Source: Deltaproteobacteria bacterium
Lineage (GTDB): Bacteria > Acidobacteriota > Holophagae > Holophagales > Holophagaceae
Length of the DNA: 34,789 bases
Assembly (NCBI GenBank): GCA_020048105.1
Contig: JAIFMW010000102.1
Location: forward strand, 1 to 34,789
Reading direction: 5' to 3'
Positions 20,375 to 25,903 of the stretch are shown in pieces. How positions within the stretch are numbered: position 1 is the first letter of the stretch; the number at the start of each line of letters is the position of its first letter. Under the pieces are notes generated by a model. That model was not told the origin of the DNA, made no database searches, and worked only from the letters and a program-made list of their open reading frames with translations. Both the position numbers and the translations under genes were made by a program.

Positions 20375-20513
20375 TTGCGGAATTGAGCGAAATGCCCCAA
20401 TCCATCATGCCGGCCCACTATCGGAAGCAAGGCGAATTCCCAGGCATACTTTAAAGCAGAAACGAGCGACCTCCAGCCCGATGGACCGTAGGCATACAGC
20501 AAAAGGACTCCCA

Positions 20514-20942
20514 ATGTTCCTTCCCTTTCTTCTTCCCGCCCTAATCGCCCAGGTTCCCGCTCCTCCCACTGAGCGGACGGCCATCGAAAAACCCATCCTG
20601 TCCTACTTCCGGTACCACCAGACGGGAGATCCCAAGGGCCTCTCCGAAGCCTTTCACCCAGATGCCCTGCTGCAATGGGCCGAGGGTGGTCAACGAAAAA
20701 TATTGACCCAAGCGGATTGGATTGCCCGAGCCGAAAGCCAAGCCACCAAGGCCGCTGGCAAGCCACGGCCCGAAGTGCGCTGCCAGATTGCCTCGCTGGA
20801 AATTACCGGAAATGCGGCCGTCGTAAAGGTGATCCTGGACTATCCAACCTTTCGTTTCATCGACTACATGCACTTACTCAAGCTCGATGGTGGCTGGAAG
20901 ATTGTGGACAAGATCTACCACCGGGAAGAGGGCAAGCACTAG
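20514..20942 (+). CDS. secreted NTF2-like / putative lumazine-binding family protein
   Basis: Short hydrophobic N-terminus (MFLPFLLPALIAQ) followed by an NTF2-like pattern ending MHLLKLDGGWKIVDKIYHRE. Confidence 0.65.
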   Translation: MFLPFLLPALIAQVPAPPTERTAIEKPILSYFRYHQTGDPKGLSEAFHPDALLQWAEGGQRKILTQADWIARAESQATKAAGKPRPEVRCQIASLEITGNAAVVKVILDYPTFRFIDYMHLLKLDGGWKIVDKIYHREEGKH

Positions 20943-22123
20943 ACCAGGTACAGCCGCTCCTGGGCCCTAGATAGCCACTCGCAGCCATCCTCCGTGACCG
21001 CCACGATTTCTTCGCAGGTGGCGATGCCGTGGCCCTCGACGGTGAGGCGGGGTTCCAGGGTGTAGCACTGGTCCTTTTCAACACGTAGATCCGGCAAGGC
21101 TCCGTAGCGTTCCCAGTGCGGGCAAAGCAGGCCTGCGCCATCGTGGGCGACGCGGCCGATCTGATGCCCCAAGGCGTGGGGATATTCGGGGTAGCCGCGC
21201 TCGGTGATGAAGTTCCGCGCTACGGAATCGACCTCGCCGCCCGTGACGCCGGGCTTCAGAAATGCCGCAGCGGCGCGAATGGAATCCACGATGGTTTCAA
21301 AACCGTGTTGCACGGCTTCGGGCGCTGCGGTTTCGCCAGGGCGCAGGAAATACCAGGTGCGCTGAAGGTCCGAGCAATAGTCATCCTTCTTTACGCCGAA
21401 ATCCACGTTCATGATGTGACCCGCTTCGATCACACGATCGGTGGGACCCGCATGGGCGCCCGCACTTTCGGGACCGGTGAAGACCGCCGGGCAATGATCG
21501 GGATCCCAGGCCAGGGTGAGGCCAGGCACTTTTTCCATTTCTTCGCAAATCATCGCCGCCACTTGTTTTTCGGTGAGGCCCACGCGAAGTCGCGGCGTCA
21601 GGCGATCAAAAATGGCAACGGTGTCTTCACAGGCAGCACGAACGCGAGCACGCTCCGCTGCGGATTTGCGACCTCGCAAGGCGGAAACCACTCGGTCGCT
21701 GGATTCCAGCCGAGCCCCGTAGGGAGTGCCTTCCAGCGCCTTGATCAAGGTCAAATACATGCCGTGGGTCATCCCATCGGACATGGTGTCATCCAGGCTG
21801 AAATTGATGGCGATGCGCTTGGGATCGAGGCGGGCAAGGACCTTGCGGAGTTCCTCGGACACACCACCCACATAGCCGATGAGTTCGCGGTAGAGACCAC
21901 GCATTTCCAGGGCCGCACGATCGAGGCTGCCCACGATGGCGATGCGTTCGCCCTGGGGCGTCAGCAGGAACGCGGACTGCCACGTCACATCGCCGCCCAC
22001 CACCAGATCGAAGCAAGGATCGTGAAGGGTGTGCGATTCGCGTGCGAACAAAAGCCACACATCGATTCCCATCTCGGTAAGGATCGCAGGCACCTGGGCC
22101 AGCTTTTCTTCCACCATGTCCAT
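20939..22123 (-). CDS. M24 family metallopeptidase (Xaa-Pro aminopeptidase-like)
   Basis: MNVDFGVKKDDYCSDLQRTWYF, HALGHQIGRVAHDGAG, LEPRLTVEGHGIATCEEIVAVTEDG: the metal-ligand pattern of M24 peptidases. Confidence 0.85.
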   Translation of the reverse strand: MDMVEEKLAQVPAILTEMGIDVWLLFARESHTLHDPCFDLVVGGDVTWQSAFLLTPQGERIAIVGSLDRAALEMRGLYRELIGYVGGVSEELRKVLARLDPKRIAINFSLDDTMSDGMTHGMYLTLIKALEGTPYGARLESSDRVVSALRGRKSAAERARVRAACEDTVAIFDRLTPRLRVGLTEKQVAAMICEEMEKVPGLTLAWDPDHCPAVFTGPESAGAHAGPTDRVIEAGHIMNVDFGVKKDDYCSDLQRTWYFLRPGETAAPEAVQHGFETIVDSIRAAAAFLKPGVTGGEVDSVARNFITERGYPEYPHALGHQIGRVAHDGAGLLCPHWERYGALPDLRVEKDQCYTLEPRLTVEGHGIATCEEIVAVTEDGCEWLSRAQERLYLV

Positions 22124-22125
22124 GT

Positions 22126-23316
22126 TTACTCCAGATCGTCAAAAAGGCTCATCTGCAGAGCCTGGGTGATATCCATGAGGGGCGTGAAGGCACCGGCGGC
22201 TGGCCAGGGGCGTTCGGCGGTAAAGGGGCATGGTGGTGGAATTTCGGGCGGAAGCCACCGAATGGCAGGTGGATGCGTCATACCTCGCATCAAAGCCGCT
22301 ACGGCACTTTCCTGGGGGATATGCGGCACCCGCAGCAAGGCGATGGGCGGATGAGCCACGATTTCCGCCATGGGCGCCGGGAAGTTGGCGCGAGCTTCGA
22401 TGGCGGAAAGTTCCCGGGGGTCCGTGCCAAAACCCGGGGCGAACAGCGGAGGGGCTGGCGGAATGGGAAGGCTGGCTCGCCACGGCAAACCTTCGCGCAT
22501 GGCTTGGTGACCCAGGCGGCTGGCAATACCAACATCGTGGCAACTGCCTACCCAGATTGGGCAGCAAAGGGATTCACGCAATTCGTTGGCCAATTCCTTG
22601 ACGCGGGCCGCAGCTTGTTCCCAATTGCCCCGACCAACCTCGAATTCGCGCCCCCCCAGGAAGCTGATTCGCCAACCCGCCCGGCGCCGCAAAAAGGGAA
22701 AGGCTTCTGGCCAGGCTCGGGCGGAAAGTCGGAGACTGAAATCCCACTCCAGTTTGGCCTGGGCATCTCCTATGACCGACGCCAGTTCGTTGATACCGAT
22801 TTCCGAAAGTGCTCCCAACGGCAGGGCCACTTCGCCCCACAAACTGCCTGCGGATAGGGGTTCCCCGGCTTCTGACTGGGTCTTTCCAAAACCGGGAATG
22901 GACCAAGCAGAACCGGACTCAGGTACCCACCCAATCCAGCCCTGACGCCACGCCTGTCCCAGGCGCCCCGTGGGTGGTTCAGGGGCGTGAAACCAGGCGG
23001 CAACGGGACCCTCCAGTTCCTCCGCAATCGCTGCCTCACGAAAATGAAGTTGAAGACCTGGTAACCGAACCAACGTGCCCAGGAAGGCGCGACGGTGTTC
23101 AGGAGTCATATCGTCAAGCCACGCCAACGGAGCATCCCAGAGCAGCGCCAAGCCACCGGGGAAAGCGCCCGAAACGCCGGCCAGGGCCTGCAAGGCCATC
23201 CATGGTGCCTCCCGCACGGAGACAACGCTATCCAAAACGCGGAGCGGCAACCAACCCGCCAGCGGCCCGTCCTGGCCCGTGCGTAGCAGGAAACCCCGAC
23301 CCTCATGAATTCTCAT
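22126..23316 (-). CDS. hypothetical protein with C-terminal QMSLF tail
   Basis: 396 aa ORF. Its ATG overlaps the thiD TGA (ATGA) and its stop lies 3 nt before the M24 peptidase start. No family recognised. Confidence 0.7.
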   Translation of the reverse strand: MRIHEGRGFLLRTGQDGPLAGWLPLRVLDSVVSVREAPWMALQALAGVSGAFPGGLALLWDAPLAWLDDMTPEHRRAFLGTLVRLPGLQLHFREAAIAEELEGPVAAWFHAPEPPTGRLGQAWRQGWIGWVPESGSAWSIPGFGKTQSEAGEPLSAGSLWGEVALPLGALSEIGINELASVIGDAQAKLEWDFSLRLSARAWPEAFPFLRRRAGWRISFLGGREFEVGRGNWEQAAARVKELANELRESLCCPIWVGSCHDVGIASRLGHQAMREGLPWRASLPIPPAPPLFAPGFGTDPRELSAIEARANFPAPMAEIVAHPPIALLRVPHIPQESAVAALMRGMTHPPAIRWLPPEIPPPCPFTAERPWPAAGAFTPLMDITQALQMSLFDDLE

Positions 23317-24122
23317 GGCACCACCGGCGCAAAACTGGGGCGTCCGATTCCGCCTGGTAGAACGGCCCGAGGCCAGCGATCCTGCATCCAGGCGCAGGCC
23401 TGCCGCGCTGCTGCAAGATCACCGGCTCCGCGCAATCGAAAGCCCAGCCAAGCCGAGGCCAAGGTGCAACCCGTGCCGCGACGATCACCCGCCAAACGAG
23501 GACGCACGCCTAGACTTGTGGACCCAGTGGCATCCACCCAGAAATCTTCCACAAGACCGGTCCCGTGACCACCCTTGAGCCAAACGGCCTTGGCTCCAAA
23601 GCCCAGGTATGCCTGGGCCAATTGTTCCGGGGAGGCTTCACGCTTCAAATCCCCGAAAGCCGCGGCCTCAGGCCGATTGGGGCAGACCACCCAAGCTCCC
23701 TGGCCCAGGATTATTTCCGCCATGCGACGAAGGCCTGCCCCGTCATGGAGCCCCACGCCCGAGGTTGGAGCCTGGATGGGATCCCAGATGGAACATCGCG
23801 GAGCGAACTTGGCTAACAAGGCAACCACGGAACGGAGGTCGGACAAGGGCAAGGCGCATAGGCCCAATTTGACACCCCAAACGCCCTGCAAATGAGGCCC
23901 TAAGGATTCTAGGCGCTCGATTGGCGGTATCGATGGAGCCACGATCTTTCCACACCCCAGACCGTTTTGAATTGTCTCGACCACCGGAATGCCCATGGGA
24001 TAGGCGCCCACTTCCCATAGGGTCAAGGCATCCCGCAGGATTCCTGCACCTGCGGAAGGATCCAGCCCTCCAAGACAGAGGGCTATGGGAATCGCTGGTT
24101 CCAGGGAGGAGACTGCCTGCAT
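23313..24122 (-). CDS. thiD: hydroxymethylpyrimidine/phosphomethylpyrimidine kinase
   Basis: ThiD/ribokinase-like motifs GGLDPSAGAGILRDA, VWLKGGHG and RRGTGCTLASA. Confidence 0.8.
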   Translation of the reverse strand: MQAVSSLEPAIPIALCLGGLDPSAGAGILRDALTLWEVGAYPMGIPVVETIQNGLGCGKIVAPSIPPIERLESLGPHLQGVWGVKLGLCALPLSDLRSVVALLAKFAPRCSIWDPIQAPTSGVGLHDGAGLRRMAEIILGQGAWVVCPNRPEAAAFGDLKREASPEQLAQAYLGFGAKAVWLKGGHGTGLVEDFWVDATGSTSLGVRPRLAGDRRGTGCTLASAWLGFRLRGAGDLAAARQACAWMQDRWPRAVLPGGIGRPSFAPVVP

Positions 24123-24141
24123 CCCTACTAGGGTGACACGC

Positions 24142-24450
24142 TTACACTTTCTTGTGGGGATGCACGATCTCGACTATGCGAAGGCCCAAGGTATCTTCGA
24201 GCACCGTCACTTCACCCCGCATTAAGACCCTGCCCTTGCTCAACACATCCATCGGCTCGCCAGCACTGCGCCGCAACTCGACCACGCTTCCAGCGTCGAG
24301 TTCAAGCAATTCACGGATGGTCATGCGCGTCTGTCCAAGCTGAATCTCAAGCGCGAAGGGCGTATCGATAAAGGGCATCAGTTCGCTGACCACGTTCTCA
24401 AACGTGATCACACGATCGGAATCAACTTTGTCGTTACGCTTGGTGGCCAA
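24142..24450 (-). CDS. fliN: flagellar motor switch protein FliN (SpoA domain)
   Basis: 102 aa with FALEIQLGQTRMTIRELLELDAGSVVELRRSAGEPMDVLSKGRVLMRGEVTVLEDTLGLRIVEIV. Confidence 0.9.
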   Translation of the reverse strand: MATKRNDKVDSDRVITFENVVSELMPFIDTPFALEIQLGQTRMTIRELLELDAGSVVELRRSAGEPMDVLSKGRVLMRGEVTVLEDTLGLRIVEIVHPHKKV

Positions 24451-24533
24451 AATGGAGTTCCTTAGAGAAGGTCAGGGAGTCAAGGGATCGACTCGAATGC
24501 CGCCCAGACGCCACAAATGCAACGCCCGTGCCA

Positions 24534-25151
24534 TCAGGCCGAGATGGCCCAATCGACGACCAGCACTTCCTTCACGGGTTTCTTGGGCTTCTTCAACTTG
24601 GGATCCACTTTCTCGCCCGGTTTCGGAGGCTTTGGAGCGAATTTTTCGTTTAGTTTGTCTTTGATTTCATTGCGAACAAATTCCCGAGTCTCGATATCCG
24701 AGGCTTCTTCCAAGGTTTTCCCCGAAAGCAATTCCAATAACAACGAGCGAATCTCACTGGATTCTGGGGTGGGCTTATCGCTAGTGGCGGCCTTCCCTAG
24801 TTCCGGATCCCGGAAAAGCACGTGCAATTCAACCTTCAAATAGGCGTTCTTGCGATCCAGATTAAGAATTTTCTGGTAAATCATCACGGCTGGCGCCTCA
24901 CCACCGCCATGACCTCCACCAGCTGCAGGCTCGTCCTCCTCCTCACCGGACTCAGCGTGAGCAGCGGCCGCTTCAGCAGCCGCCTTGTCGGCAGCGATCT
25001 TCTGGGGATCCGCCTGGGCCGCACTCTTGGCGGCGAGTTTCTTCTTCAGATATAAACCCCCACCGCCAAGCAGACCTAGAACCACTAGGCCGATCCCCCC
25101 AAAGATGATGAGTTTCTTCATTCCAAGCGCCTTTAAATCTGGAAGTTTCAT
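24534..25151 (-). CDS. fliL: flagellar basal body-associated protein FliL
   Basis: N-terminal TM (KKLIIFGGIGLVVLGLLGGGGLYL), acidic/Ala-rich linker, FliL-like C-domain (NAYLKVELHVLF... IRSLLLELLSGKTLEE), ending VLVVDWAIS. Confidence 0.85.
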   Translation of the reverse strand: MKLPDLKALGMKKLIIFGGIGLVVLGLLGGGGLYLKKKLAAKSAAQADPQKIAADKAAAEAAAAHAESGEEEDEPAAGGGHGGGEAPAVMIYQKILNLDRKNAYLKVELHVLFRDPELGKAATSDKPTPESSEIRSLLLELLSGKTLEEASDIETREFVRNEIKDKLNEKFAPKPPKPGEKVDPKLKKPKKPVKEVLVVDWAISA

Positions 25152-25171
25152 CCAACCCTCCGAGTCTTAAT

Positions 25172-25198
25172 TTATCGGCAATCAACCCAACAACCCTA
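25172..25198 (-). promoter_or_regulatory. candidate sigma28 (FliA) promoter for fliL
   Basis: Minus strand reads TAGGGTTG-N11-GCCGATAA. The -10 matches the sigma28 consensus GCCGATAA exactly, the -35 matches TAAAGTTT at 5 of 8, and the 11 nt spacer is exact. A GGAGGG RBS and the fliL ATG follow immediately. Confidence 0.7.
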
Positions 25199-25410
25199 AG
25201 TTCCGAAAGGGAGGGAATTTTCTGATGCCTTTTCCAGTCTGGCAAGGGTTTAGCGAAGCCCTTTTCGGTTACCGCTCCAGGAAAGGCGAGTCTACGCTCC
25301 CGAGAAATTCAACCGAGCAACTCTTGTAATTTGGTTCTCCAAACTGAATTACCGAATAAGCCCATCCCCTGCGAATCTACCTGTGATTTTTCTTATTTAT
25401 ATACGCTATT

Positions 25411-25447
25411 AAAAAAAGCGGTCCACAAATGTGGACCGCCTTTTTTA
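25411..25447 (-). terminator. intrinsic terminator of the HU gene (potentially bidirectional)
   Basis: aaaaaaa gcggtccac aaat gtggaccgc cttttttaa: 9 bp perfect stem, 4 nt loop, A and T tracts on both sides. Confidence 0.92.
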
Positions 25448-25463: not shown

Positions 25464-25760
25464 TTACTTCTTCTTCTTGCCGCCTTTGCCGTTCACATCG
25501 TCGGCCAGCTTCTTGCCGGGTTTGAACTTCGCAACCTTCTTGGCAGCGATCTTGATCTTCTGGCCGTCGCGGGGATTACGGCCAGTGCGGGGGCCACGGG
25601 CGACGACAGAGAAAGTGCCGAAGCCAACCAGGGTAACCTTGTCGCCAGCGCGAAGAGCGGAGCTAACGGAAGCGATCACCGTGTCCAGGGCGGCAGCAGC
25701 CTTGGACTTGTTTACATCAGCCTTTTCGGCGATGGCGGCGATAAGTTCAGCCTTGTTCAT
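25464..25760 (-). CDS. hup: DNA-binding protein HU
   Basis: MNKAELIAAIAEKADVNKSKAAAALDTVIASVSSALRAGDKVTLVGFGTFSVVARGPRTGRNPRDGQKIKI...; GGAGG RBS next to the ATG at 25760. Confidence 0.95.
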   Translation of the reverse strand: MNKAELIAAIAEKADVNKSKAAAALDTVIASVSSALRAGDKVTLVGFGTFSVVARGPRTGRNPRDGQKIKIAAKKVAKFKPGKKLADDVNGKGGKKKK

Positions 25761-25903
25761 GGAAACCTCCAAAAAAGGGAACTAAGTCCCATATTGAGAA
25801 AAATGTTTTGAACGCTCCTTCGAGACGTCCGCCGCTGTTGATTTTTCAAGAGCGAGCACTCTTGAAATCCCCGTGAATACTGGTCTGGCTCTTAACACCA
25901 AGA

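Follow-up and report, generated by a model that had tools for sequence, protein, structure and literature searches.

The gene run that leads from fliL to an M24 peptidase gene in a Holophagaceae genome is best read, with a probability of roughly three in four, as two abutting units: a fliL-fliN cassette that would be transcribed from a FliA-type promoter, and a thiD-like gene that, with the gene following it, would have a promoter of its own, read-through from the first unit into the second being possible. The reading builds on sequence, conservation, gene order and the joint loss of fliL-fliN and flagellin, from which we infer transcription, the identity of the sigma factor and read-through. 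The window, i.e. the whole stretch of DNA that was analysed (34,789 nucleotides), belongs to a Holophagaceae (Acidobacteriota) MAG that is 82% complete and consists of 246 contigs. The features of the window that bear on this reading are as follows.

25464..25772, minus strand: HU gene (Pfam), the upstream neighbour in nearly all relatives.
25418..25439, no strand assigned: terminator-like hairpin between HU and fliL, with 9 pairs and, on visual inspection, a T run on each strand.
25195..25199, minus strand: -35 element in the register of the family, here TTAGG; most relatives have TCAGG before fliL, and the flagellin promoters have TAAAG.
25172..25179, minus strand: GCCGATAA, assigned by sequence match and conservation as the -10 element of a FliA-type promoter.
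25156..25161, minus strand: GGAGGG, from its sequence the probable fliL ribosome binding site.
24534..25151, minus strand: fliL (Pfam FliL, 41.9 bits), with orthologs in 24 family genomes besides its own.
24142..24450, minus strand: fliN, a short FliN-type protein (Pfam); the genes for FliM and a FliY-like protein lie elsewhere in the genome.
24130..24138, minus strand: TGT-CACCCT, assigned by conservation as the extended -10 of a candidate thiD promoter separate from that of fliL.
23313..24122, minus strand: thiD-like kinase (Pfam Phos_pyr_kin).
22126..23316, minus strand: unknown 396 aa protein, predicted to fold like a class III ribonucleotide reductase, with QxxLF near the C terminus.
20939..22123, minus strand: M24 peptidase (Pfam), beside the preceding gene in the window's genus only.

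A plus-strand frame of 153 aa (20481-20942) with a Pfam Lumazine_bd_2 match is convergent with the M24 gene and probably marks the end of the gene run.

The first-pass annotation of this DNA described a sigma28-type box, TAGGGTTG-N11-GCCGATAA, on the minus strand at 25198-25172. This description is accurate to the base, as are the distance of 20 nt from the end of the box to the fliL ATG at 25151, the GGAGGG between the two (25161-25156), and the gene spacings: 83 nt from fliL to fliN, 19 nt from fliN to thiD, an ATGA overlap of thiD with the 396 aa protein gene, and 2 nt from there to M24. The box has three mismatches to TAAAGTTT-N11-GCCGATAA and is the sole such match within the window, where 0.05 were expected from shuffles. 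Genome-wide, matches with three mismatches occur at chance level (12, vs 17 for the reversed pattern). Because they are not enriched, the match alone proves little, and the case for a promoter at this putative site is carried by position and conservation. In the register of the family, the -35 element is TTAGG at 25199-25195, separated by N15 from GCCGATAA and lying one base 5' of the box as first described. The -10 element is exact, the -35 element is a weak match with two of five bases off TAAAG, and the spacing is that of the family's flagellin promoters. Transcription from this promoter would be predicted to start at ~25166-25164, 13-15 nt before the fliL ATG.

Conservation upstream of fliL orthologs had been proposed as a check on the box. 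Among the named genomes, the two-part box T[C/T]A[G/T]G-N15-NCCGATRN was found in 29 of 37 usable fliL orthologs, a denominator that derives from 39 fliL loci by setting aside two of the ten misses that have no upstream sequence; several genera, the AT-rich g2 genomes among them, carry no two-part box. Outside the window the box mostly reads TCAGG-N15-NCCGATRA, compared to TTAGG-N15-GCCGATAA in the window. An alignment of 24 non-redundant sequences yields a footprint in which the majority base reaches 96% in the box columns, compared to 55% for spacer columns and 53% for upstream columns, a contrast that is partly built in, as these sequences were pre-selected for the box and several columns are fixed by the pattern. 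A strict pattern is matched by 11 of the 23 fliL regions examined in the family (shuffled mean 0.05), and the -10 core alone by 18 or 19 of the 23, vs 4 to 5 in shuffles; both patterns were defined after the sequences had been viewed.

The flagellin promoters of the family follow TAAAG-N15-GCCGAAWR, with a spacer one base longer than that of E. coli. The fliL boxes lie in the same register and share with them the -35/-10 arrangement and the CCGA core, but the flagellin promoters have TAAAG and GCCGAAWR where the fliL boxes have T[C/T]AGG and NCCGATRA. FliA is encoded in the window's genome (TIGR02479, 256 bits vs a cut-off of 189.6; contig C206 of genome G000), and so is FlgM. Conservation across genera, the flagellin-promoter layout and the presence of both proteins agree with the first-pass assignment: the fliL box very probably represents a lineage-specific form of the FliA promoter, with a spacer longer by one base and TCAGG or TTAGG as its -35 element. 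This provides a testable form of the late-flagellar sigma promoter for the Holophagaceae group, for which the literature searches made here, on Geothrix or Holophaga flagellar promoters, turned up no FliA promoter study. It is highly improbable that the box matches by chance or serves another factor. Such a reading would account for the lack of genome-wide enrichment, for TCAGG in place of TAAAG, and for the modest scores of the box with a flagellin-trained matrix, by which six other sites in the window score higher; however, it does not account for the footprint, for conservation at fixed spacing across genera, or for the match to the flagellin promoters.

Several further observations concern FliA-type sites and flagellar genes. 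The only exact TAAAG-N15-GCCGAWA in the window's genome (L132, G000:C242:5485-5511) precedes a small Pfam YjfB_motility protein. No flagellin was found in this MAG (82% complete). The pattern TCAGG-N15..17-CCGATRA was considered as a genome-wide regulon and rejected, since none of six inspected matches away from fliL was a convincing flagellar-gene promoter. Boxes at flgM are weak and restricted to three genomes, and no box lies near several genes that are annotated as flagellin-family members and are probably flgL. At the fliL locus of one relative (L022, G008), the match in the complete genome was reported with one in-frame TGA. On contig C206 (L065), genes named by their domains as flhA, flhF, flhG-like, fliA, fliM and a FliY-like gene (CheX and FliN domains) stand in a row. 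Because fliM and the FliY-like gene sit in this row, the fliN of the window encodes an additional FliN-type protein, which is short.

The arrangement resembles the E. coli fliLMNOPQR operon (PMC4183435), in which a FliA promoter also lies directly before fliL and the run includes fliN. In contrast to E. coli, the Holophagaceae spacer is longer by one base, the -35 element is TCAGG or TTAGG, and the cassette holds only fliL and fliN, followed by thiD and an unrelated gene. In E. coli, fliL is dual-regulated, and genes of this kind respond little to the deletion of fliA (PMC4183435). By this precedent, a housekeeping promoter after HU might always drive fliL-fliN, with FliA merely adding to its output. 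An element like CCTAAATACCGC is indeed found ~155-165 nt after the HU stop codon in many genomes, with or without fliL-fliN, the observation being one of positional clustering only. Nonetheless, this element barely exceeds the shuffled score and its equivalent in the window, near 25252, is weak, and a scan of the HU-fliL region for sigma70-type promoters returned 2 sites vs 1.8 expected, which makes dual control rather unlikely here. The terminator-like hairpin separates HU from fliL, whereas the 19-nt gap between fliN and thiD yielded no terminator-like site; fliL thus probably needs its own promoter, and thiD can also receive read-through. In the preferred two-unit reading, the Holophagaceae form of the FliA promoter (T[C/T]AGG-N15-NCCGATRA) would drive fliL-fliN as a late flagellar cassette.

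The start of the second unit is marked by a candidate promoter. A known promoter type combines an extended -10 (TGN) with a very short leader. An element of this kind, mostly TGKCATYCT, lies 4-12 nt before the thiD start in 36 of 41 loci with fliL-fliN, one of which (L191) is a poor match, TAAAGT, and in all 15 loci without them; with an earlier pattern, 21 of 31 were matched, vs 0.29 in shuffles. All three of these counts rely on patterns defined after the sequences had been viewed. Like other extended -10 promoters, the candidate element has a TG set off by one base from a YATNCT-like hexamer, and a start codon 4-12 nt further on; unlike them, it mostly has C as the first base of the hexamer. 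The hexamer of the window itself, CACCCT, is poor. Some of the loci that have no TG carry TATCCT or TACACT, as expected for an extended -10. A general survey of -10 hexamers near start codons gave a TANNNT peak at 12 nt; it was set aside as proof, ortholog redundancy having been kept in. The element (TGK-CAYYCT) would, presumably with the housekeeping sigma factor, drive thiD, the 396 aa protein gene and followers that depend on the genus. The product of the thiD-like gene matches Pfam Phos_pyr_kin, and its score of 62.4 bits with the NCBIfam ThiD model TIGR00097 falls far below the cut-off of 204.95.

The first-pass annotation had FliA driving a single transcript from fliL to M24, and named a separate promoter or a terminator before thiD as observations that would speak against it. 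At the level of sequence the former was found and the latter was not. Wherever fliL-fliN are present, the order is HU (unseen at G012) followed by fliL-fliN-thiD and the 396 aa protein gene; in the g11 genomes and in G028, G036 and G020, thiD and the latter gene come directly after HU, fliL-fliN having been lost without them. Flagellin is absent from all 11 genomes searched that have no fliL-fliN, and 8 of the 11 keep thiD and its neighbour, while three small g8 genomes have also no gene for the 396 aa protein. No FliA above the cut-off was detected in the g11 genomes. G028 and G036 have kept FliA and FlgM, and gave no flagellin, FliM/FliN or fliL match. The fliL-fliN pair also occurs in another family of the class, which suggests that the two genes were paired before they became linked to thiD.

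The M24 gene stands beside the 396 aa protein gene in the window's genus (g1) only and, by the comparison of gene orders, is a genus-specific insertion; G011, G004 and G014 have a primase and a sigma-70 factor in its place (domains checked on the window's copies). With a candidate promoter inside the run, and with genes that are neither gained nor lost together, the stretch from fliL to M24 is, as far as sequence comparison reaches, not one conserved operon. It is accordingly quite unlikely that thiD, the 396 aa protein and M24 stem mainly from a single FliA-driven transcript, which would place all three under motility control. The tight spacing on one strand, the constant order from fliL to the 396 aa protein gene and the lack of a detected terminator between fliN and thiD fit such a transcript, but a conserved extended -10 precedes thiD, M24 is confined to one genus, and thiD and its neighbour outlast fliL, fliN, the full box and flagellin. 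The genomes that have lost flagella and kept thiD provide a natural experiment that separates adjacency from co-regulation. In the two-unit reading, FliA transcripts may still run into thiD, and motile cells could in this way add to its output, although thiD expression would not depend on FliA.

The 396 aa protein could not be assigned to a family; Pfam, NCBIfam, PADLOC and PDB sequences gave no significant match. In one genome scan it was seen in Holophagales-type genomes only, its carriers among named relatives being Holophagaceae, Holophagales or unplaced Acidobacteria MAGs, several Geothrix species included. Two AlphaFold models, computed with different orthologs first, have pLDDT values of 90.9 and 86.5; both runs share one set of 22 sequences and are not fully independent. 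With the first model, the PDB yielded 34 matches at E <= 0.001, each of them a class III ribonucleotide reductase (TMq 0.44-0.60), and the second, with a 37%-identical ortholog first, also matched class III ribonucleotide reductases, almost exclusively so in both runs. The predicted models thus have the overall fold of class III NrdD. However, the protein differs from NrdD in its length of 396 aa, in the lack of sequence similarity to E. coli NrdD (hhalign), in having no conserved catalytic cysteine (no column holds cysteine in more than 10 of the 22 sequences), and in its QxxLF tail. The QxxLF motif lies within the last 18 residues in 51 of 53 complete orthologs and resembles the beta-clamp motif. 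One may speculate that a shrunken ribonucleotide reductase-like protein, restricted to Holophagales, docks to the DNA polymerase clamp via QxxLF and works with the thiD-like kinase, and that FliA read-through from fliL boosts the pair in motile cells; as a whole this is a long shot. With its predicted fold and clamp-motif-like tail, this neighbour of thiD may outweigh the promoter in worth.
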